A stretch of 64,000 bases of DNA from Betaproteobacteria bacterium (GTDB lineage: Bacteria > Pseudomonadota > Gammaproteobacteria > Burkholderiales > SG8-39): contig JACPYS010000021.1 in the NCBI GenBank assembly GCA_016195915.1, forward strand, positions 1 through 64,000, read 5' to 3'. Every line of letters starts with the position of its first letter. Position 1 is the first letter of the stretch. Made by a program: the position numbers and the translations under genes. A model generated the notes under the pieces. The model saw only the letters and a list, made by a program, of their open reading frames with translations. It ran no database searches and was not told the DNA's origin. Positions 1,571 to 56,498 of this stretch are shown piece by piece.

Positions 1571-4379
1571 GGACACCACCGAGAAGAACACGGAACAGGA
1601 CTGGCTCAAGACCAACCTTGCCAAGTTCAGCCGGATGCTGCAGGGCCAGCGCGACCTGAACACGGTCGGCCGGCTGATCCTGTCGGACCTGGCGCCCGTG
1701 GTAAAGGCGCAGCACGCGATGTTCTTCGTTCTCGACAGTAGCCGCGAACCCAACGAACTGGCGTTGCTGGCGAGCTACGCCGCAGAAGGACTCGGCAATC
1801 ACGGCATGCGCCTGCGCCTTGGCGAAGGGCTGATCGGCCAGTGCGCCCTGGAGAAGCAGAAGATTCTCCTCGACCACGCGCCGGGCGACTATATCCGCAT
1901 CCGCTCCGGCCTCGGAAATGCGGCGCCCCGTTCGCTGCTGGTACTGCCGATCGTGTTCGAAGGCCAGGTGAAGGGCGTCCTGGAACTGGCTTCGTTCGAG
2001 GGATTCAGTTCCACCCACCAGGCGTTCCTCGAGCAGCTGACCGAGAGTATCGGCATCGTGATCAACACCATCGAGTCCAACACGCGGACCGAAGACCTTC
2101 TCACGCAGTCGCAATCACTCGCGCAGGAACTGCAGAGCCGCCAGAACGAGCTGCAGCAGACCAACCAGGAATTGCAGGACAAGGCGGGCCAGCTCGCGCA
2201 CCAGAATCAGGAAGTCGAGCGCAAGAACCAGGAGGTCGAGCAGGCGCGGCAGGCGCTCGAGGAAAAGGCCCGGCAGCTCGCGCTCACCTCGAAATACAAG
2301 TCCGAGTTCCTCGCCAACATGTCCCACGAGCTGCGCACGCCGCTCAACAGCCTGCTGATCCTCTCGGACCAGCTTTCCGGCAACGCCGAAGGCAATCTTT
2401 CGGTACGCCAGATCGATTTCGCAAAAACCATCCATTCGTCCGGCAACGACCTGCTGATGCTGATCAACGACATCCTCGACCTGTCGAAAATAGAATCGGG
2501 CACGGTGGCGGTCGACATCGGCGAACTGCCGGTGGACGAACTTTACCGGTACGTCGAGCGCACCTTCCGGCCGGTGGCGGAATCGCGCAAGCTCGATTTC
2601 CAGATCCGGCTCGACGAAAACCTGCCGCCTTCGATGTTTACCGACGCGAAACGGCTGCAGCAAATCATCAAGAACCTGCTGTCGAACGCGTTCAAGTTCA
2701 CCCATCGCGGCCAGGTTACCCTCACCATCGAGGCCGCCACCGGCGGATGGAGCGCGACCAACGAGGCGCTCAACCACGCGCCGCAGGTGCTTGCCTTTTC
2801 CGTGTCGGACACCGGCATCGGCATTCCCGGCGAGAAGCAGCAGATCATTTTCGAGGCATTCCAGCAGGCCGATGGAAGCACCAGCCGCAAATATGGCGGA
2901 ACCGGCCTAGGTCTCGCGATCAGCCGCGAGCTGTCGCGCCTGCTGCGCGGTGAAATCCGCCTGTTCAGCACGCTTGGTCGCGGCAGCACGTTTACCCTGT
3001 ACATGCCGCAGAGTCATACGCCCCAGCGCCCGGCGCAATCCCCCGAGGAGGCAGCAGGCCCGCGCTTCGCGGACCGCCCCGCCGAACTCGCCGGCAGCGC
3101 CCGCCTGCCGGCCCTCGCCGCGGTACCGGCGATCGCGCTGCCCCACGCCGAACCCGAGCCCGAGGCGCTGCCCAACGAGGCCGGCGACGATCGGGACAAC
3201 ATCCGGCCGGGCGACCTTGTCCTGCTGATCGTCGAGAACGATATCCCGTTTGCCCGGGTGCTGCTGGAGGCGGCGCGCGCGAAGAGCTTCAAGGTCCTGG
3301 TTGCGTCGCTTGGCGCCGCCGCGCTCGCCATGGCGCGCGAGTATAAGCCGTCGGCGATCACGCTCGACATCGTCCTGCCTGACATCGAAGGCTGGCGCGT
3401 GCTTGAACGGCTCAAGAACGACACCGCGAGCCGGCATGTGCCGGTGTGCGTGATTTCTACCGAGGAAGCACGCGAGCGCGCGTGGCGCGGGGGCGCCTGG
3501 TCGTTCCTCAACAAACCGATCCAGAGCACCGAACTCATCAGCGATCTGCTCGACTCGGTAAAGGAGGTGGTCAGGCGCAAGGGCACGGGCGTGCTGCTGC
3601 TCGCGCCGAAAGGCTTCAAGCTGGTCAGGTCGATCAAGTCGTTCGACATGGGACTGCGGATGACGCATGTGACCGACGCTGCGGCCGCGAGCGCCGCGTT
3701 TGTCAAAGGCGGAATGGGCTGCCTGGTGTGCTGCCCCACGAGCATTGACCCGGTAGCGCTTCCGCCGCCGGTTGCCGACGCGGTCAACGAGGGCCGCCTG
3801 CCGATGATCGTCTATGACGACGCGAATCGCGTCCACGAGGACGATAGCCAATGGCACCGCCTGCTCAAGAATGGCCGCGTGCGGCTGGTACGCTCCCCGG
3901 AGCGGTTCATCGATCAACTCGCCTTCACACTGCACGCCGAAACCGCGCGGCTGCCGCAGGCGCACCGCGCGGTGCTGCAGGGCATGTACCAGTCGAACAA
4001 GCTGCTCTCGGGAAAGCGCGCGCTGATCGTCGACGACGACATGCGCAACATCTTTGCACTCTCGTCGGTACTCGAGGAATTCGACATGCGGATCAAATCG
4101 ACCGACAACGGGCGCGATGCGATCAAACTTCTCGACCGCGACCCGGACGTCGATATCGTGCTGATGGACATCATGATGCCGGAGATGGACGGCCTCGATA
4201 CGATGCGCGAGATACGCAAGATCCCGGCCTGCCGCGACTTGCCGATCATTGCGGTCACGGCGAAGGCGATGAAGGGAGACCGCGAGCGTTGCATCGAAGC
4301 CGGCGCCTGGGACTACCTGTCCAAGCCGGTGGATACCGAGCAACTGCTCGGTACGCTGCGCGCCTGGCTGTACCGCTGA
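3..4379 (+). CDS. Multi-HAMP hybrid sensor histidine kinase (5' end outside window)
   Basis: This is a cytoplasmic hybrid histidine kinase resembling the fungal group III (Nik1) and bacterial multi-HAMP kinases. The reading frame is open from base 3, so the true start lies upstream. Numbering from base 3, at least six HAMP-type units of 92 residues fill about 1-530. A GAF domain (about 555-700), a coiled coil (about 700-760), HisKA with phospho-acceptor His775 in SHELRTP, and HATPase_c with NAFKFT, DTGIGIP and GGTGLGL follow. Then come a receiver with Asp1122, a degenerate receiver-like segment (about 1195-1320) and a C-terminal receiver with Asp1389 in [11 protein letters not shown]. No membrane segment is visible in the part present. 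The next gene overlaps the stop codon, so the two are probably cotranscribed. The signal sensed is unknown. Confidence 0.93.
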
Positions 4380-25098: not shown

Positions 25099-25148
25099 GG
25101 GGTCAGGTCTTGTATTGACGCATTTGCGCTAAGGCAAGACCTGACCCC
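25099..25148. repeat. REP-like palindromic element A
   Basis: Left arm GGGGTCAGGTCTTG (25099-25112) and right arm CAAGACCTGACCCC (25135-25148) form a perfect 14-bp inverted repeat around a 22-nt loop. The left flank AGAACAACGGGGTCA is itself duplicated just upstream. The arms are identical to those bounding the RAYT gene at 47586-48515. It sits between sodC and the UGSC selenoprotein gene and could also act as a transcription terminator hairpin. Confidence 0.92.
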
Positions 25149-25171: not shown

Positions 25172-25702
25172 TCACCCATTGCGCGCCGTGAGCAGGGGAA
25201 CGATCTCCCGCGCCGCGGCTTGCGCCTTCTCGCGAAGTGCGGCGTCGTCGTCGTTGGCGACGGGGTGGCCGATCACCACGAACGGGTAACCCGGCAAGCC
25301 GTTCAGCTCGCCTACCACCTCGGCGCTGCGCACGAAGCGCTCGGTGATGACCGCGACCGACGGGATGCCCAGCCGTTCGGCTTCAATGGAGTCGTGCAAA
25401 CTGCACGACGAGCAACTCCCTCAGTCGCCGATGCCGGAGACGATCGCGTCGGCGCCGCTCATCTCCGCGAGTAATTGGGGCGGCACCGGCCGGGACGCGT
25501 CAGGCTTTCGCCGGCGGATGAACTCGCGCACGCCGTATTCCTTGCGCAGGATCTGCTCGAGGAAGTCGTAGAACCTCTCGGTGCCGATCTTGGCGTTGTC
25601 GAGCAGTCCGAGCACTGCGCCATCCAGCGACGAAAGCGCGGCGGCGGGTCGCAGCGCCTCACCTTCAGCGGCCAGCCGCGGGTCCAGGATTCTGAGTGTC
25701 AT
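25172..25702 (-). CDS. UGSC-family selenoprotein (in-frame TGA = Sec94)
   Basis: The frame runs from ATG 25702 (AAAGGAG upstream) to the stop at 25172, with one in-frame TGA at 25421-25423. Reading it as selenocysteine gives a 176-residue protein with the motif D-U-G-S-C-S-S-C-S-L-H-D, which is the hallmark of the UGSC family known from metagenomes. The N-terminal part has a conserved helix DFLEQILRKEYGVREFI, and the C-terminal part LGIPSVAVITERF and VVIGHPVAND. A SECIS-type hairpin follows the TGA. The gene is the third in an operon after a CoA transferase and a 347-residue protein. Function is unknown; a thiol/selenol redox or reductive role fits the motif. Sec machinery must be encoded elsewhere. 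Confidence 0.85.
25391..25409 (-). promoter_or_regulatory. SECIS-like hairpin of the UGSC selenoprotein
   Basis: Eleven nucleotides after the TGA, the minus strand reads GTCGTGC-AGTTT-GCACGAC, a perfect 7-bp stem with a 5-nt loop. The distance from TGA to the loop is 18 nt and G is the second loop base. Bacterial SECIS elements require a short stem, a small apical loop with G in the first two positions and roughly this distance, so it fits the known rules. Confidence 0.75.
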
Positions 25703-25729
25703 GGGCTGCTTCTCCTTTGTTGGGTGCAT

Positions 25730-26773
25730 TCAAACGCCGATGGCGGTTGTCACGGCAAGCGATTTCTTCCCATACCAGGGCGGAACGATGACACCGAATC
25801 CACCCGCGGGTCCGCCGGCCGCAATGACGAGCAGGTCTTCCGGCGAACGCAGCGCGCGGTAGACCTGCTGCTCGTCCTTGCGAGCCGCGACCGCCGACTT
25901 GCCGACCGAGCGCCAGTCGCCACGCTTTACGCGCGCGGATTCGAACACGTACTCGCGCACATTCTGTTTGCTCCATCCCGCCCCGGCGAAGATGTCGCGA
26001 TGCTGCCTGGAAATCACGATCGCGTAATTTCCCTCCCAGATGGAGTAGGTCAGCATGTTGCACCGGATCGCGGCCGCGTAGGTCTCGAGGATCTCCTTCG
26101 GGTCGTGCGTCCACTCGTTCATGATCTGGTGCGGGGATTCGACCGCCATCACCGTCACTGCAGACGTCCCCGCCGCTACCCCGCGTTCAACGGACAATGG
26201 CAGCCAGCGGGTGTCTTCCTCGTCCTCGGCTACGCAGAACGTGAACTTGCCGGGATGCCCCAGCGTAGAGCGGTCCAGTTGCCCCGGAACGCCGCCCAGC
26301 ACATTGATGAGAAACAGGCGCACGCTGCGGCCGATGCTCGCGTTGGCGCGGCTCGCATTGGCGAGCGCATTGTGCGTGGTGTTCATGCCGAGGCTCAGCC
26401 GGACCGGTCCGTTCACCACGATGAACGGAGCGCTGCCGCCGGTGCTGGCTGTGCTGCCGTGCAGCCCGTACTGAGGCTGGCACAGCGACTTGATGATCGC
26501 GACCACGACCGGCATGTACTCCGGCAGGCAGCCGGCCATCAGCGCGGCGATCGAAAGTTTTTCCGCCGTGATGCGGCGCCGGCGCACCGGTTCCACGCCG
26601 ATGATATCGCGTGCATTGAGCGCGGCCGCTGCGAGGAAACGCGCCACGCCCGCTTCGGTCGGCGGTACGACAGGCAGGCCGTCCGTCCACCCGTTGCGCT
26701 GAAACAGTTCATTGGCCTCGAAGGCGTCCTCGACTTCGAGCACTGCGCTTGCCAACCCCGAGGTGCTGTTCAT
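25730..26773 (-). CDS. Conserved protein of the selenoprotein operon, unknown function
   Basis: This 347-residue protein contains RNGWTDGLPVVPPTEAGV near the N-terminus, a motif I associate with proteins encoded beside UGSC selenoproteins. Further features are a central LGMNTTHNALANASRANASIGR, FTFCVAEDEEDTRW and the C-terminal AAGGPAGGFGVIVPPWYG. No membrane segment or signal peptide is visible. It lies 27 nt upstream of the UGSC gene and 27 nt downstream of the CoA transferase gene, so it probably works with the selenoprotein. I cannot assign an activity. Confidence 0.75.
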   Translation of the reverse strand: MNSTSGLASAVLEVEDAFEANELFQRNGWTDGLPVVPPTEAGVARFLAAAALNARDIIGVEPVRRRRITAEKLSIAALMAGCLPEYMPVVVAIIKSLCQPQYGLHGSTASTGGSAPFIVVNGPVRLSLGMNTTHNALANASRANASIGRSVRLFLINVLGGVPGQLDRSTLGHPGKFTFCVAEDEEDTRWLPLSVERGVAAGTSAVTVMAVESPHQIMNEWTHDPKEILETYAAAIRCNMLTYSIWEGNYAIVISRQHRDIFAGAGWSKQNVREYVFESARVKRGDWRSVGKSAVAARKDEQQVYRALRSPEDLLVIAAGGPAGGFGVIVPPWYGKKSLAVTTAIGV

Positions 26774-26800
26774 GTCTCGCTCATTGCCGGTAATCCTTGT

Positions 26801-28033
26801 TCATATGATGCCATCGCTCCTCAGTTGCTGCACTTGCACCGCAGAGAGATTCGCAAAGCGGGCGAGAATTTCCTCGCTGTGCGCGCCCGGCACCGGCGCA
26901 GGGCTGTCATAGCTCGCCGGCGTCCGGCTGAACTTGATCGGAAACCCCGGTGCCGAGGCGGCGGCCGTGGTCCCGGTCAACGGGTTCACCAGCTTGACGA
27001 TCATCTCGCGCTCGAGCAATTGCGGCCAGCGCATCACTTCGTCAGTCGATCGAACCGGGCTGCAGGCGACGCCCGCGCCGGCGAGGGATGCGACCACCTC
27101 GTCCTTGGTTCGCTGCATCGTCCACTGCGTCACGACCTCGTCGACAGCCGCATTGTTCACGATGCGCCAGCCGACTTGCATCATGTCCGGATCGCTCTTG
27201 AGATCGGTGCGGCCCATCGCGTCGAGGAGCACCAGCCATTCGGCGTGCGTTGCCGTCCCAATGGCCACCCAGCCGTCGCGCGTGCGGAATATATTGAACG
27301 GTGAAAAGCGCATGATCCTGTTGCCCTGTCGCGGGGCGAGGTTCAGGCGCTCATAGCAGTCGATCGGCTCGTCGAAAATCAGCGAGAACAGGCAATCGGC
27401 CATCGCCACATCGATGGCCTGGCCTTCTCCCGAGCGCTCGCGGTGCAGCAGCGCCGCCACCACGCCGTTTGCGGCGAATACACCTGCGATTGCATCCGAA
27501 AGCGCCGAGGCGGTCTTGACTGGAACCTCGCCGGGTTGTCCGGTCATGCTCATGAGACCTACTGCCGCCTGCACCATCAGGTCGTACGCCTTGTCCTCTC
27601 TGGAAGGTCCTGTCAAGCCATAGCCAGTGAGCGCGCAGTAGATGATCGCCGGATTTGCCGCGCGCAGCGCCGGGTAATCGATTCCAAGCCTGCTCGCGAC
27701 ACCGGCGCTGAAGTTTTCCACCACCACGTCCGCTTTGGCCACCATCGCGAGAAAGATTGCGCGACCGCGCTCCGATTTCAGGTCGAGTGTGATCGACTTC
27801 TTGCCGCGCGCGCGCTTCAGATAGGCAAGCCCCATGTCCCGTTCGGACCGGCGCTCGAACGATATTCCCTGCGGTCCGTCGAACGGTGGCGCGAACGCGG
27901 TGGGGTCGCCGCTCCCGGGATCGTCGATCTTGATGACTTCGGCGCCCATGCCGGCGAGAAACAGTGTGCGCTGCGGTCCGGAAAAGAAACGCGTCAGATC
28001 CAGAACCACCACGCCGTCGAGAATTTTCTGCAT
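26801..28033 (-). CDS. CaiB/BaiF family (type III) CoA transferase
   Basis: The 410-residue protein begins MQKILDGVVVLDLTRFFSGP and has the family features GAEVIKIDDPG, KSITLDLKSERGR, YCALTGYGLTGP and GQAIDVAMADCLF, which place it in the type III CoA transferases that move CoA between carboxylic acids. ATG 28033 follows GAGAGG. It is the first gene of the operon with the 347-residue protein and the UGSC selenoprotein, so it may activate the substrate of that system. A flavoprotein gene is divergent from it. Confidence 0.93.
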   Translation of the reverse strand: MQKILDGVVVLDLTRFFSGPQRTLFLAGMGAEVIKIDDPGSGDPTAFAPPFDGPQGISFERRSERDMGLAYLKRARGKKSITLDLKSERGRAIFLAMVAKADVVVENFSAGVASRLGIDYPALRAANPAIIYCALTGYGLTGPSREDKAYDLMVQAAVGLMSMTGQPGEVPVKTASALSDAIAGVFAANGVVAALLHRERSGEGQAIDVAMADCLFSLIFDEPIDCYERLNLAPRQGNRIMRFSPFNIFRTRDGWVAIGTATHAEWLVLLDAMGRTDLKSDPDMMQVGWRIVNNAAVDEVVTQWTMQRTKDEVVASLAGAGVACSPVRSTDEVMRWPQLLEREMIVKLVNPLTGTTAAASAPGFPIKFSRTPASYDSPAPVPGAHSEEILARFANLSAVQVQQLRSDGII

Positions 28034-28124
28034 GTGCCTCTCGTTGTACACCCGTACCCGGGCGTATGGCAGTCTAGGTCAAAACCAAGGTCATAGGGTC
28101 GTGGCACAATCAACCGTACAAGCC

Positions 28125-29039
28125 ATGACACTCACGTCACAAACTCACGATCTTCTGGTCATCGGCACTGGCATCACCGGAATGAGCGCCGCGCGGCAGG
28201 CGCTGCGAAACGGCATTTCCACGGCGGTGATGGAGTCGCTGTTCTTCGGCGGTCTGATCACCAATGTCAATGAACTCGATGGCGAAATCCAAGGATCGGG
28301 GAGTGAGGTGGCTGCAGATCTGATGATGGAGCTCAGCAGACTCGGCGCGAAGAGCATCGCTGCGACGGTTGAGTCAATCGCGCGAGACGGCGATACCTTG
28401 GTCGTCAAGAGCGACGCCGGCAGCCACCGCGCCCGCGCGCTCATCGTCGCTTCGGGTGCGAGGCTCAGGCGGCTCGGGATTCCGGGCGAATCCGAGTTCG
28501 AGGGCAAGGGAGTCTCGCGTTGCGCGGACTGCGACGGGCCGCTCTACAGGAATCAGGATGTGGTCGTTGTCGGTGGCGGTGATTCCGCATTGCAGGAAGC
28601 GCTGGTGCTTGCGGGATTTGCGCGGCAGGTTTACCTCCTGCATCGCGGCGCGAAGTTCACCGCGCGCCAGCATCTCGTGGATCGGATCGCCGGGCATTCG
28701 AACGTTTCGATCCATTGGCGCACGCGTGTAGATGCAGTGCTGGGCGACAAATCCGTTCAGGCGGTGCGAGCGCGTGGATTGGAGTATGACGCGGCCGGCG
28801 AGCTTCCCTGCACTGGCTTTTTCGCCTACGTCGGCCTGGAACCGGCATGCGATTTCGTACCGGAAGCGATCGAGCGTGATGCGGGCGGGTTTCTGTTGAC
28901 CGACGCGGGACTGCAGACCGCGATGCCGGGAGTATTCGCGGCGGGTGCGGTGCGTTCGGGTTACGGCGGGTTGCTGAGGCATGCGCTCGCGGAGGGAACC
29001 GCGGCTGCGAAATCTGTCAAGGTGTTGATCCGCGCTTGA
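28125..29039 (+). CDS. Thioredoxin reductase-like flavoprotein
   Basis: The 304-residue protein has the FAD-binding GTGITGMSAA, the redox-active pair in RCADCDGP (CxxC), and the NAD(P)H-binding VVVVGGGDSALQEA. The C-terminal FAD contact reads GVFAAGAVR, with Ala for the usual Asp. The overall length and CxxC location match low-molecular-weight thioredoxin reductases. It is divergent from the CoA transferase-UGSC operon across 91 bp, so it might deliver electrons to the selenoprotein. That link is inferred from position only. GTG 28101 is an alternative start. Confidence 0.85.
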   Translation: MTLTSQTHDLLVIGTGITGMSAARQALRNGISTAVMESLFFGGLITNVNELDGEIQGSGSEVAADLMMELSRLGAKSIAATVESIARDGDTLVVKSDAGSHRARALIVASGARLRRLGIPGESEFEGKGVSRCADCDGPLYRNQDVVVVGGGDSALQEALVLAGFARQVYLLHRGAKFTARQHLVDRIAGHSNVSIHWRTRVDAVLGDKSVQAVRARGLEYDAAGELPCTGFFAYVGLEPACDFVPEAIERDAGGFLLTDAGLQTAMPGVFAAGAVRSGYGGLLRHALAEGTAAAKSVKVLIRA

Positions 29040-29050
29040 AAGGGAACAAC

Positions 29051-29156
29051 AGGGTCAGGTCTTGTATCAACGCATTCGCACCAAGGTAAAGAAAATGGAC
29101 GAGATCAGGCAGGATCGCCAACTTTCGTGCATTGTCGCAATGTAAGACCTGACCCC
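29051..29156. repeat. REP-like palindromic element B (long loop)
   Basis: The left arm AGGGTCAGGTCTTG (29051-29064) and right arm TAAGACCTGACCCC (29143-29156) match the RAYT arms with one mismatch each. The 78-nt loop starts TATCAACGCATT like element A. Left flank GGAACAAC and right flank ATTCACG recur at other copies. The ATTCACG-containing flank is partly duplicated just after it. Confidence 0.85.
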
Positions 29157-30708: not shown

Positions 30709-30758
30709 GGGGTCAGGTCTTGTATTGGCAAACTTGCGGTAATACAAGACCTGACCCC
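30709..30758. repeat. REP-like palindromic element C
   Basis: The arms GGGGTCAGGTCTTG (30709-30722) and CAAGACCTGACCCC (30745-30758) are perfect, and pairing continues inward through TAT/ATA, giving a 17-bp stem. It begins directly upstream of the acyl-CoA ligase start codon at 30708, so it lies in that gene's leader. The right flank ATTCACG is shared with element B. Confidence 0.92.
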
Positions 30759-47585: not shown

Positions 47586-48515
47586 GGGGTCAGGTCTTGC
47601 CTTGATACACCGGCGTGTTGACAATTCGGCTCACCGTCGCGTAATGAAGGCCTACATGGCGTGCGATTTCCGCGAGCGTATAAGCATGGCGGATGTGCGC
47701 GTCACGTATTGCTGCATCGCGCTGCACTTTGTTGTTTCCGTCTGAACCTGGTAGAAGACTCGACAATTCCGGCCGGTGCGCCAGCCGCTGCGATCGTGAC
47801 GTTTCCACCCTGTTTGCTGCTGCGACAAGCCTCGGCGCGAGGGTCTGCGCGAATGACTCGTTTCCCAACAGCAACTGACCTCGCAGGTCGCGCCAAGGCG
47901 ACGTTCGATCGTAGCCGTCGAGGACGAATTGCCGATAGAGATTTTGTGCGGACGCTTGGCCATTTCCGAATTGCTCAAGGAGCCAGTTCACGCTGAGCCA
48001 GCGCGGTGAGGGCTGCTCGCCAGCGGTGGCAGCGTATGACGACCAGCGCCAGCGGCCCGGCGAGTTCGCCAACCCCGCCCGTACCGGATTCAGGACGACA
48101 TAACGCGCGAGTTCGAGCAGATAGCTCTCGGGCTCGACCAGAATCGCCTTGAACCGGCCCTGAAATACATGCCCCACGCGCCCGTGGCGACGGTTGAAAC
48201 GTTGCGTATAGACGCCGTTCAGCCACCGCATGCCGCGCGAGAGATTGGGCTGCGGGGTTCCCGCGAGGAGGTGGTAGTGGTTTCCCATAAGGCAATAGGC
48301 ATGGATGCGCCAGCCGAAACGCTCGACCACCGACGCAAGCATGTCGAGAAAGATCTCCCGGTCGGTGTCATCGAGATAAATCTCCCCGCGCGCGTTGCCG
48401 CGCGAGGTCAGGTGATAGAGGGCGTCGGGATACTCGATGCGCAGCGGTCGGGACATGCCTGAAGAACGCGTGGACGCCGGGCCGGATGACTTGCGTGATA
48501 GCAAGACCTGACCCC
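47586..48515 (-). mobile_element. RAYT-containing element bounded by 14-bp inverted repeats
   Basis: GGGGTCAGGTCTTG at 47586-47599 and its exact complement CAAGACCTGACCCC at 48502-48515 bound a 930-bp unit that holds one RAYT gene. The same arms bound the short elements A, B, C and E. The gene's TGA stop lies inside the left arm. No target-site duplication is evident. Confidence 0.85.
47590..48456 (-). CDS. REP-associated tyrosine transposase (RAYT)
   Basis: The 288-residue protein belongs to the IS200/IS605-related Y1 transposases. It has an N-terminal MSRPLRIEYPDALYHLTSRGN, the HUH-type metal motif in MGNHYHLLAGTP, the nucleophile Tyr region LLELARYVVLNPVRAG, and a C-terminal helix-turn-helix (YTLAEIARHVGLHYATVSRIV). 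RAYTs cut and join single-stranded DNA at REP palindromes. The flanking 14-bp arms and four further copies in the window are its likely substrates. ATG 48456 is chosen since homology begins there. Confidence 0.93.
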   Translation of the reverse strand: MSRPLRIEYPDALYHLTSRGNARGEIYLDDTDREIFLDMLASVVERFGWRIHAYCLMGNHYHLLAGTPQPNLSRGMRWLNGVYTQRFNRRHGRVGHVFQGRFKAILVEPESYLLELARYVVLNPVRAGLANSPGRWRWSSYAATAGEQPSPRWLSVNWLLEQFGNGQASAQNLYRQFVLDGYDRTSPWRDLRGQLLLGNESFAQTLAPRLVAAANRVETSRSQRLAHRPELSSLLPGSDGNNKVQRDAAIRDAHIRHAYTLAEIARHVGLHYATVSRIVNTPVYQGKT

Positions 48516-52987: not shown

Positions 52988-53035
52988 GGGTTCAGGTCTT
53001 GTACTCGCATTTACCTCAATGCAAGACCTGACCCC
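52988..53035. repeat. REP-like palindromic element E
   Basis: The left arm GGGTTCAGGTCTTG (52988-53001, one mismatch) and right arm CAAGACCTGACCCC (53022-53035) enclose a 20-nt loop. The left flank GAGACAAC resembles flanks of elements A and B. It ends 9 bp before the start codon of the hydroxyacid dehydrogenase gene and so lies in that gene's leader. Confidence 0.9.
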
Positions 53036-54095: not shown

Positions 54096-54111
54096 AACGG
54101 GAGTAATGACG

Positions 54112-54342
54112 ATGGCCAACCTGACCATCACGGTGCCCGAAGAAGTCCTGAGGAGTGCGCGGCGCCGCGCGCTGGAGCAAGGCACGTCGGTAAACGCGTT
54201 GCTGCGCGACTATCTGAGACAATTCACCGGCGTACAACCTGCGCAGGCCAAAGCCGCGGAGCGCGTGCTGGAATTGTCGAGGAAAGCGCGCGCCGGCCGG
54301 GGCAAGGCCAGGTGGACGCGTGACGATCTGCATCAACGATGA
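54112..54342 (+). CDS. Ribbon-helix-helix antitoxin (VapB-like)
   Basis: The 76-residue protein begins MANLTITVPEEVLRSARRRALEQG, a ribbon-helix-helix DNA-binding pattern, followed by a charged toxin-binding tail (ARAGRGKARWTRDDL). ATG 54112 has GGGAG at 8 nt; the ATG at 54106 is too close to it. Its TGA overlaps the ATG of the PIN toxin gene, so the pair is a type II toxin-antitoxin operon. Confidence 0.88.
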   Translation: MANLTITVPEEVLRSARRRALEQGTSVNALLRDYLRQFTGVQPAQAKAAERVLELSRKARAGRGKARWTRDDLHQR

Positions 54343-54758
54343 AGTACTTCTTCGACACCAATGTTCTGGTGTACCTGTTCGACGCCGATTCCCCGGACAA
54401 GCGCAAGAGGGCGCGCGCCCTGTTCCAGGCGCACTCAGGCGCCGGCGACATTCTTCTCAGCACCCAGGTGCTGCAGGAATTCTACGTCACGGTCACGCGC
54501 AAGCTGGCGCGGCCGCTGGATGTTGCAGCGGCCGCGGAGGTGGTGGAAAACTTTGCGGAGCTGCCGATGGTGAACATCGACGGCAAGCTCATTCTCTCGG
54601 CGATTCACCGCAGCCGCGGCAGCCAGCTTTCGTTCTGGGATGCCCTGGTCGTGCAAGCGGCCATCGAAGGCCACGCGAGCACGCTTTACTCGGAGGACAT
54701 GCATCACGGACTGATTCTGGATGGCCTGAAAGTCGTTAATCCATTTCTCGTCCGATGA
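54339..54758 (+). CDS. PIN-domain toxin (VapC-like RNase)
   Basis: The 139-residue protein has the PIN nuclease acidic residues in MKYFFDTNVLVYLFD, LQEFYVTV, FWDALVVQAA and YSEDMHHG. It should be a magnesium-dependent RNase that blocks growth when not bound by the antitoxin. It overlaps the antitoxin gene by 4 bases. The following selenoprotein gene starts 34 bp downstream. Confidence 0.92.
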   Translation: MKYFFDTNVLVYLFDADSPDKRKRARALFQAHSGAGDILLSTQVLQEFYVTVTRKLARPLDVAAAAEVVENFAELPMVNIDGKLILSAIHRSRGSQLSFWDALVVQAAIEGHASTLYSEDMHHGLILDGLKVVNPFLVR

Positions 54759-54792: not shown

Positions 54793-55668
54793 ATGACCGT
54801 TGGATACATGCAGGCAATCACCGAGCGTTACAAGAGCCTTGGCTATGCGCCTTATCGCTGGTTCCGTGCCGAGGATGCCCCGCCATGGCAGCCGTTGTCG
54901 AAGCCGCTTGCGGCCGCGCGCGTCGGCATGCTTTCGACTTCGGGCGCGTATGCGCTGGGGCAGGTCGCGTACCACTACAAGGACGACACCTCGATCCGGC
55001 AGATTCCGGCCGGGACGCCGGATGAGGACCTGCGCTTTTCGCACCTTACCGAAAATTACCTCGTCGATCCCAGGCGGGACCCGGCGTGCATCTTCCCGCT
55101 GCGCACGCTGCGAACACTGGCAGACGAAGGATTCATCGGGGCGCTCGCTGAAGACGTGTTCTCATGCATGGGCGCCGTCTATTCACAACGCCGCGTACGC
55201 GAGGAAATGCTGCCGGCGGTGCTCGCGTCCTTCAAGGCACAGAACATCGACGCGGCGCTGCTGGTTCCGATGTGACCAGTGTGCCACCAGACCGTGTGTC
55301 TGGTTGCGCGTCACCTCGAAGCCAGCGGCATTCCGACCCTGTGCCTCGGCAGCGCCTTCGACATCCTCGAGAGCGGCCGGCCGCCGCGCGCGGTGTTCGT
55401 CGACTATCCCCTGGGCCACAGTGCGGGCAAACCGTTCGATCCGGCCGATCAACTCGAAGTCGTCCGCGGCGCGCTGCGAGGCTTCGAGACCATCCGGCAG
55501 TCTGCCGAAATCCGCCTCCTGCCAAATCGCTGGGACGAAACCGGCGAGTGGATTCAGGAGGCTGCGCGCAGCCGAGGCGGGGACACGCGGCAACCACGGG
55601 ACGAGACGCCGCAGTTTCAATACGAGGCCGACCGCGCCGCGGCCCGCGCTAGCGGCGCCTTGCGCTGA
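54793..55668 (+). CDS. GrdB-like selenoprotein (in-frame TGA = Sec161)
   Basis: The frame runs from ATG 54793 (GGAG at 7 nt) to the stop at 55668 and has one in-frame TGA at 55273-55275. Reading it as selenocysteine gives 291 residues with LLVPM-U-P-V-C-HQTVCLVARHLE, a U-x-x-C redox motif. Both sides belong to one family, that of the glycine/sarcosine/betaine reductase selenoprotein B (GrdB-like) proteins: RFSHLTENYLVDP before the TGA, GIPTLCLGSAFDIL and VDYPLGHSAGKPFD after it. A SECIS-type hairpin follows the TGA. GrdA and GrdC subunits are absent, so it is not a full glycine reductase. It may reduce a C-N, C-S or C-halogen bond, which is inference. Confidence 0.87.
55286..55304 (+). promoter_or_regulatory. 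SECIS-like hairpin of the GrdB-like selenoprotein
   Basis: Ten nucleotides after the TGA, ACCAGAC-CGTGT-GTCTGGT forms a perfect 7-bp stem with a 5-nt loop. The TGA-to-loop distance is 17 nt and G is the second loop base. The design is the same as that of the hairpin at 25391-25409 although the sequences differ. Confidence 0.75.
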
Positions 55669-55686: not shown

Positions 55687-56046
55687 CTACCCGCCTGCGC
55701 CGCGCCGAAGTTGTGCAAGCAGCTCAAGCGCGCGTTCGGCGGCCTTCTCGCCGCCGGGGAGGTTGCCCCGCACGTAACCTGGACGGATGTCCTCGATCTC
55801 GGACAGCGCATCGACGAGTCGTTCGTCGGCGACGCGGTACTTGCGCAACTCGTTTACCGTGAGCATGTAGGTGTGCAGGATGTCGGTCTGCGGCGGCGTC
55901 ACTCCCCGCCGGTGCAGCGCGAGATTGAGCCAGTGCGTACCCGCGAGCATCGCTGCTTCGATCTTCATCTCGTAGTCGGCGGGGCCGCATTTCGCGAGCG
56001 AGCGCTCGATGCGCCCGGCCTTGGCGCGGTGTTCTTCGGGCTTCAT
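55687..56046 (-). CDS. Small protein with AGTH motif, unknown function (copy 1)
   Basis: This 119-residue helical protein contains YEMKIEAAMLAGTHWLNLAL and HRRGVTPP. The neighbouring upstream gene encodes a clearly related AAMTAGTHAVNSVLHH segment. It overlaps that gene by 4 bases. No signal or membrane segment is seen. Both lie in one operon behind a hydroxyacid dehydrogenase gene and converge with the GrdB-like selenoprotein gene. Function is unknown. Confidence 0.7.
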   Translation of the reverse strand: MKPEEHRAKAGRIERSLAKCGPADYEMKIEAAMLAGTHWLNLALHRRGVTPPQTDILHTYMLTVNELRKYRVADERLVDALSEIEDIRPGYVRGNLPGGEKAAERALELLAQLRRGAGG

Positions 56047-56498
56047 CGGGTCTGCTCCGGGATGCGCCTGGCGAGCAACGCGAGGCAGCGGCGCAGTGCG
56101 CCGTCGCATTCGACCGCGATGGCTTGCGTCGGTTCGCGCTCGCCCCGCACGCAGGGGTCGCGGTGGTGCTCGATGATCTCCATCTCGTGCATCATGTTTG
56201 CCACGTCCTCGGGAATCGGTCCTTCCACCTTGGGCCGTCCGACGTGCAGGATGTCCCCGAGCGGATGGAACGCCGCGCGCACGGCGCCGTCAGGCTGCGG
56301 CACGAGGTACACGCCCGGCTGCGTCGGGAAGACGTCGTCGTCGCGTGTGATGCGCGCGTGGTGCAGGACGGAGTTCACCGCATGCGTGCCCGCGGTCATC
56401 GCCGCCCAGAACCACAGCTCGAAGTCCTCGAGCGGGTCGAGCCGCGCGCGCAGCGCTTCGAGCTTCGAGATCTTTTCCAGATGGGAGGCCGTATTCAT
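56043..56498 (-). CDS. Small protein with AGTH motif, unknown function (copy 2)
   Basis: This 151-residue protein has FELWFWAAMTAGTHAVNSVL and HHARITRDDDVFPTQPG, related to the 119-residue protein encoded downstream, but with an extra middle segment (VYLVPQPDGAVRAAFHPLGD). It overlaps the hydroxyacid dehydrogenase gene and the downstream gene by 4 bases each, so three genes are translationally coupled. I do not recognise the family. Confidence 0.72.
   Translation of the reverse strand: MNTASHLEKISKLEALRARLDPLEDFELWFWAAMTAGTHAVNSVLHHARITRDDDVFPTQPGVYLVPQPDGAVRAAFHPLGDILHVGRPKVEGPIPEDVANMMHEMEIIEHHRDPCVRGEREPTQAIAVECDGALRRCLALLARRIPEQTR

Follow-up and report, generated by a model that had tools for sequence, protein, structure and literature searches.

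A predicted selenocysteine-containing PrdB-like protein encoded across an in-frame TGA in a Betaproteobacteria bacterium

Results

The window analysed here, a stretch of 64,000 nucleotides from a Betaproteobacteria bacterium (contig JACPYS010000021.1), carries on its forward strand a gene at 54793-55668 for a predicted selenocysteine (Sec)-containing PrdB-like protein of 291 amino acids; it opens with an ATG at 54793, a start backed by the start positions of its orthologues, and closes with a terminal TGA at 55666-55668. The sole internal stop of the frame is a TGA at 55273-55275 in the context LLVPM-U-PVCHQTVCLVARHLE, and the coordinates given in an earlier note on this DNA, which had assigned the sequence on both sides of the codon to one protein family, proved exact. 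Read-through yields U161-P-V-C164, with the local string U-P-V-C-H-Q-T, at a putative Sec codon where relatives exchange U and C; under translation table 11 the frame is split into two ORFs and the gene ends at 55273-55275. A SECIS-like hairpin (55286-55304, forward strand) follows the TGA after a gap of 10 bases, its stem of 6-7 bp pairing 55286-55292 with 55298-55304 around the loop CGTGT (55293-55297), and a convergent ORF (55687-56109) lies downstream of the gene. Upstream on the same strand are a VapB-like ribbon-helix-helix antitoxin gene (54106-54342; RHH_1, 22.1 bits over a cut-off of 20.5) and a VapC-like PIN toxin gene (54339-54758; PF01850, 45.1 bits) that ends 34 bp before the selenoprotein gene, so the VapBC pair that had been reported directly in front of it is real.

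Relatives were sought in 98 genomes of the same family at a threshold of E<=1e-10 and were found in 25 of them, with 37 matches in all. Exactly one internal stop, always TGA, occurs in 28 matches and none in the other nine; the site was inspected in 23 of the 28, with U at the motif every time, and in all nine stop-free matches, each of which reads C-P-V-C-H-Q-T, as the check for C-P-V-C homologues suggested earlier had anticipated. Orthologues in the genomes G086, G088 and G090 are 77% identical over residues 1-291 and all three keep the TGA; their dN/dS values behind the TGA (0.166, 0.097 and 0.178) compared with those before it (0.152, 0.211 and 0.151) point to purifying selection behind the codon, with no sign of decay there. 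The record of one locus with this orthologue (L096) is titled Bordetella parapertussis MAG MH-08apr19-17, a species name that may be doubtful because the same contig (G088) groups with the window's own family. In named genomes, scanned with two patterns, 80 of 584 relatives were kept as loci; among these listed matches the site holds U in 12 and C in 68 (10 and 66 in the first reading, the remaining four being two of each), a ratio biased to C because one of the patterns accepts no other residue at this place. Only U or C was seen at the site in all rows of relatives inspected, and a quick tree of 109 rows requires at least three changes between the two; this count alone was taken from the tree, since it flags long branches meeting. 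Neither the hairpin count nor the tree includes L093 and L096, which duplicate the genes of L029 and L031; L121, which has a stop in the extended frame, was left out of the tree and of alignment A2, and alignment A1 contains no rows of subfamily 2.

Hairpin counts were made on 104 distinct sequences out of 110 rows. Among the 32 distinct TGA forms all six core pairs are present in 31 and five in one, whereas none of the 72 distinct Cys forms has six pairs (five in 21, four in 37, three in 10 and two in 4). Within a 33-row alignment of TGA forms, 99.5% of the cells pair, against 72.1% in shuffled and 5-51% in slid controls; both sides change in five of the six pairs, and the covariation score of 0.783 (shuffled, 0.256) was equalled in 0 of 500 shuffles. 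The number of both-side-changed pairs was matched by 357 of 500 shuffles, and that of further pair types by 455, so the cell counts and the covariation score carry the case for the hairpin, many of whose changes stem from the split between two subfamilies. Part of the pairing of the Cys forms is coding constraint, because the protein is conserved in this region, which makes the contrast between U and C forms the better test. Compared with synonymous shuffles, the folding energy has a mean z of -0.96 in 23 U forms and +0.15 in nine C forms (p=0.0019), the U group being the more stable. The window hairpin by itself has an energy that does not stand out from synonymous-codon shuffles (z -0.45, P 0.31), and the SECIS case therefore rests on the family. 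Since the hairpin covaries in the TGA forms and is complete in no Cys form, we identify it, on this comparative evidence, as a SECIS element. The gene almost certainly reads TGA 55273-55275 as Sec, judging from the aligned relatives, and the claim of a redox U-x-x-C selenoprotein is strongly supported by conservation on both sides of the codon, by the U/C exchange and by the hairpin.

The earlier note had also called for a check of the Sec machinery, which came out in favour of recoding save for one component: SelB (contig C2, 399 bits), SelA (C47, 567 bits) and SelD (C54, 431 bits) are present, all over cut-off and free of internal stops, but tRNA-Sec was not found in the 67-contig draft by RF01852 scoring (150 of 1065 and 38 of 1039 candidates), by pattern or by blastn with the gene of a congener. 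The best RF01852 match in the genome (46.7 bits) is a tRNA-Ser according to ARAGORN; ARAGORN on the window gave nothing useful, and neither did Rfam searches of the window and of the contig starts where selB and EF-Tu lie. Across the family the RF01852 cut-off is passed in 44 of 98 genomes, 40 of them with at least 60 bits, and the other four matches, near 50 bits, are possibly not true tRNA-Sec. The congener G051 and the orthologue carriers G086, G088 and G090 do have tRNA-Sec. SelB was found in 16 of the 20 family genomes with a TGA form versus 27 of the 78 others (Fisher p=0.0003); among the four TGA-form genomes without SelB, tRNA-Sec matches reach 69-76 bits in three (G037, G060 and G087) and only about 49 in the other (G066). 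In G051 the tRNA-Sec gene stands directly behind a thioredoxin-reductase (TrxR)-like gene whose counterpart in the window lies at 28125-29039, and the matching place in the window holds instead an inverted repeat of the GGGTCAGGTCTTG type. The absence of tRNA-Sec may be a draft gap or a real loss. Inverted pairs of GGGTCAGGTCTTG, which are REP-like, occur at 25100-25147, 29052-29155, 30710-30757, 47587-48514 and 52989-53034, with 10 matches in the window versus 0.12 expected; the pair at 29052 occupies the spot of the congener's tRNA-Sec, and the pair 47587/48502 encloses an ORF (47590-48504, reverse strand) that looks like a REP-associated transposase on visual inspection. Beside selD (L175, 334-2529) lies a gene judged by eye to be similar to selU (selenouridine synthase), and with it selenium may enter tRNA too.

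Besides the window gene, PrdB-like TGA genes occur at three further places in the genome (C31, C60 and C33); contig C47 gave a weak match to the PrdB-like query (E 0.001), and a repeat attempt yielded no alignment. The C60 paralogue has a C-terminal extension and lies between two CMD/AhpD-family genes (L025, 8243-11110). Three UGSC selenoprotein genes were also recognised: one belongs to the window, and the other two lie next to selB and encode a further domain. Profile scans covered the UGSC gene of the window and one selB-linked gene. A cluster at 25175-29039 of the window comprises the UGSC-family gene (25175-25729, reverse strand; TGA 25421-25423; PF24696, 166.2 bits; NF041046, 126.2 over 125), a partner protein gene (25730-26773, reverse) without Pfam or NCBIfam match and with 33-34% identity over about 320 residues to the UGSC-fused domain next to selB, a gene for a CaiB-like CoA-transferase of family III (26801-28051, reverse) that reaches no NCBIfam cut-off, and the gene for the TrxR-like flavoprotein (28125-29039, forward; 243.8 bits, under the cut-off of 343.45), a candidate electron donor whose gene is 73% identical at the DNA level to the G051 gene next to tRNA-Sec. 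In the same genome the UGSC fusion genes (L022, 4649-6346 and 6411-8171) have selB (1626-3596) and a TrxR-like gene nearby, so that a TrxR-like gene stands beside selB, beside tRNA-Sec in G051 and beside the UGSC cluster in the window. Fusion of UGSC to an uncharacterised domain has been reported from the Global Ocean Sampling (GOS) data, as the available part of that survey records (PMC2398784). With at least seven predicted TGA selenoprotein genes (four PrdB-like, three UGSC), the genome counts as selenoprotein-rich under the six-gene definition given in part of PMC5029168.

The PrdB model TIGR04483 covers residues 30-246 and so spans the TGA; it scores 122.8 bits (E=1.5e-35), below its cut-off of 300, and the GrdB-type models give 23-33 bits, under their cut-offs and in the C-terminal model part only (TIGR01918: 25.5 bits vs 65.45, model positions 281-399 of 431); Pfam returned nothing for the selenoprotein at 0.001. 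The description of the protein as GrdB-like thus named the right superfamily, but the best model is PrdB and not a GrdB-type one. GrdB-type selenoprotein B has the motif UxxCxxC, according to the part of PMC13188914 available, and the U-P-V-C-H-Q-T of the window protein departs from it. The protein resembles PrdB more than GrdB in sequence and falls below the cut-offs of both, and a role other than glycine reductase is plausible given its scores against the GrdB models. The PrdA profile had no match in the genome and was equally silent in the control genomes. True D-proline reductase and glycine reductase were both considered as assignments, and the protein reached the cut-off of neither.

An AlphaFold2 model computed with Cys for Sec (mean pLDDT 89.6) has a strand at 154-158 and a helix at 162-177, with U161-P-V-C164 between the strand and the start of the helix. 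The predicted domain is Rossmann-like and has relatives in PrdB and in the C-terminal part of GrdB. Searches of the PDB by sequence found no close solved structure, and those by fold with Foldseek no match under E 0.001; the best VIA-align result is microcystinase C, with Z 8.6 and 156 residues aligned at 3.8 A, where a best Z of 7 to 8 is typical when there is no clear match.

A search by tblastn (E<=1) for the window VapB and VapC in ten related loci (L093-L098, L084 and L024-L026, covering orthologues, near relatives and paralogues) found neither gene, and VapBC was rejected as a conserved partner; the adjacency is therefore probably irrelevant, and VapBC is probably unrelated in function to the selenoprotein. 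A PIN-type (VapC-like) gene recognised by eye near the C31 paralogue (L024, 9274-9801) is dissimilar to the window VapC. In 20 of the 80 listed loci a CaiB-cluster gene precedes or follows in the same orientation, with a spacing of -21 to 245 bp; on called genes alone the adjacency amounts to 9 of 75 versus 4 of 977 other genes, a count that misses some because of long called starts. Bradyrhizobium contributes nine of the 20, Belnapia and Paeniroseomonas four, Rhodopila two, other Acetobacteraceae two, Rhodospirillaceae two and an unplaced MAG one. Every one of the 20 is a Cys form, with 34-46% identity to the window protein, and none of the 12 listed U loci has CaiB next to it on the same strand, while a CaiB-like gene lies anywhere in three of these 12 (L096, L129 and L154), some loci being short. 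The neighbours of the orthologue in G088 include an acyl-CoA dehydrogenase gene (Pfam; directly upstream), CaiB, an FAD-binding dehydrogenase and IclR; G090 shares the acyl-CoA dehydrogenase gene with G088, and G086 has more distant acyl-CoA-dehydrogenase-like genes, one of them directly upstream (29% identity). The window gene itself has neither CaiB nor acyl-CoA dehydrogenase beside it, nor any other of these genes.

Discussion

The selenol chemistry of PrdB and GrdB is established for those families, and by analogy the window protein most likely works as a selenol-based reductase. We propose that SelB and tRNA-Sec would insert Sec at UGA codon 161, after which the selenolate would attack a polarised substrate carbon and bring about reductive cleavage of a C-X bond, as in PrdB and GrdB; C164 would then form a selenenyl sulphide with U161, and a TrxR-like flavoprotein, perhaps the product of 28125-29039 or its relative beside selB, would re-reduce it. 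Taken as one reading, in which Sec is translated at U161 and a substrate-cleaving selenol reductase draws on a TrxR-like donor, this is the account to which we lean, if by little. The first guess for the substrate is an acyl-CoA, suggested by the CoA-metabolism genes beside relatives. A CoA-thioester substrate is no more than a lead, because Cys forms make up all the loci with an adjacent CaiB gene, and this confinement lowers the odds both for the mechanism and for the bolder reading that follows. It would be a bolder and rather improbable step to see here GrdB/PrdB-type selenol/thiol chemistry outside Stickland metabolism, in a stand-alone proteobacterial domain without pyruvoyl partner that cleaves CaiB-made CoA substrates with a TrxR-like donor and occurs as several paralogues per genome. 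For FarB/FarE, a GrdB-like pair without the pyruvoyl cysteines, C-F cleavage on fluoroacetate has been proposed (PMC10838667, in the part available).

Whether the TGA is recoded at all can be asked in two ways. A plain stop, a sequencing error or a mutation in a pseudogene would agree with table 11, which ends the gene at 55273-55275, but three orthologues in other genomes keep the same codon, 28 of the 37 family matches have one internal stop that is always TGA, selection behind it appears purifying, and the covarying hairpin is complete only in TGA forms; given this conservation, the dN/dS behind the TGA and the hairpin contrast, we regard this explanation as ruled out for practical purposes and its probability as vanishingly small. 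Alternatively, a gene built for recoding may have been stranded by loss of tRNA-Sec in this genome, with only a 160-aa fragment made, as the failure of RF01852, pattern and blastn to find that tRNA would suggest. We consider this very unlikely: SelA, SelB and SelD are over cut-off without internal stops, seven TGA genes (four PrdB-like, three UGSC) are still open, there is no decay behind the TGA, and the draft consists of 67 contigs in which RF01852 scored only 150 of 1065 and 38 of 1039 candidates.

Given recoding at U161, the substrate-cleaving reductase has to be weighed against two other functions. PrdB is the best model (E=1.5e-35), as would be expected of the PrdB subunit of a true D-proline reductase, but 122.8 bits is far from the cut-off of 300, PrdA had no match, though its control was silent, and no prd gene was recognised among the neighbours, scanned in part, of the window gene or its orthologues, which leaves this identity hardly credible. 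A selenoprotein acting as a general thiol-selenol oxidoreductase or peroxide scavenger, and not as a substrate-specific reductase, has more to recommend it: U-x-x-C is widespread among selenoproteins as a redox motif (PMC1088965 and PMC13188914, each in the part available), the C60 paralogue sits between two CMD/AhpD-family genes, a TrxR-like gene accompanies the Sec genes, and the CaiB linkage seen in Cys forms is missing from the U forms. The Rossmann-like fold predicted from the strand-helix order and structure comparisons, the sequence homology to substrate reductases and the four diverged paralogues in one genome, which suggest different substrates, speak against such a general function, and we hold it to be unlikely, though deserving real weight.

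Several known systems come close to the window protein. Clostridial PrdB of D-proline reductase (TIGR04483) likewise aligns across the Sec site and has one Sec in UxxC, but the window protein is far below the equivalog cut-off, has about 290 residues as opposed to about 240, and has no PrdA in view. Selenoprotein B of the GrdB, betaine and sarcosine reductases (TIGR01918, TIGR01917, NF040795 and NF040794) is homologous around Sec, yet it has about 430 residues, of which the window protein, with about 290, matches only model positions 281-404, and the window protein lacks C at the last place of UxxCxxC. The UGSC family (PF24696, NF041046), the other Sec family of the window and of the selB locus, shares a UxxC-type motif; the PrdB-like protein does not match its models, and what the two have in common is only a suggested dependence on the Sec machinery. 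Close as well are the Sec-PrdB proteins of the Sargasso Sea and GOS (PMC1088965, PMC2398784; compared at family level from the parts available), with UxxC, PrdB-type homology, Sec and Cys forms and non-clostridial hosts; they are counted there by family, whereas here there are a genome context, a covarying hairpin and four TGA paralogues.

Sec-PrdB proteins numbered 42 in the Sargasso Sea (PMC1088965) and 235 in GOS (PMC2398784), and lists of selenoproteins in bacteria include proline reductase (PMC5029168, PMC13188914, PMC9312934), as far as the available parts of these papers go. Because Sec-PrdB has been known since 2005, the window protein adds a member to a known kind of selenoprotein, while its subfamily is one that reaches neither the PrdB nor the GrdB cut-off. 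The literature available to us in part gave family counts only and no function for proteobacterial PrdB-like proteins, although one may be in print.

A known but little-understood selenoprotein family, counted in seawater since 2005, is found here in several copies in one genome. An annotation under table 11 would halve this selenoprotein. The linkage of Cys relatives to CaiB offers a testable lead to the substrate of the family. The host family seems betaproteobacterial. For Sec-decoding Betaproteobacteria a 2006 survey, in the part available, gave no selenoprotein other than formate dehydrogenase (PMC1794560).
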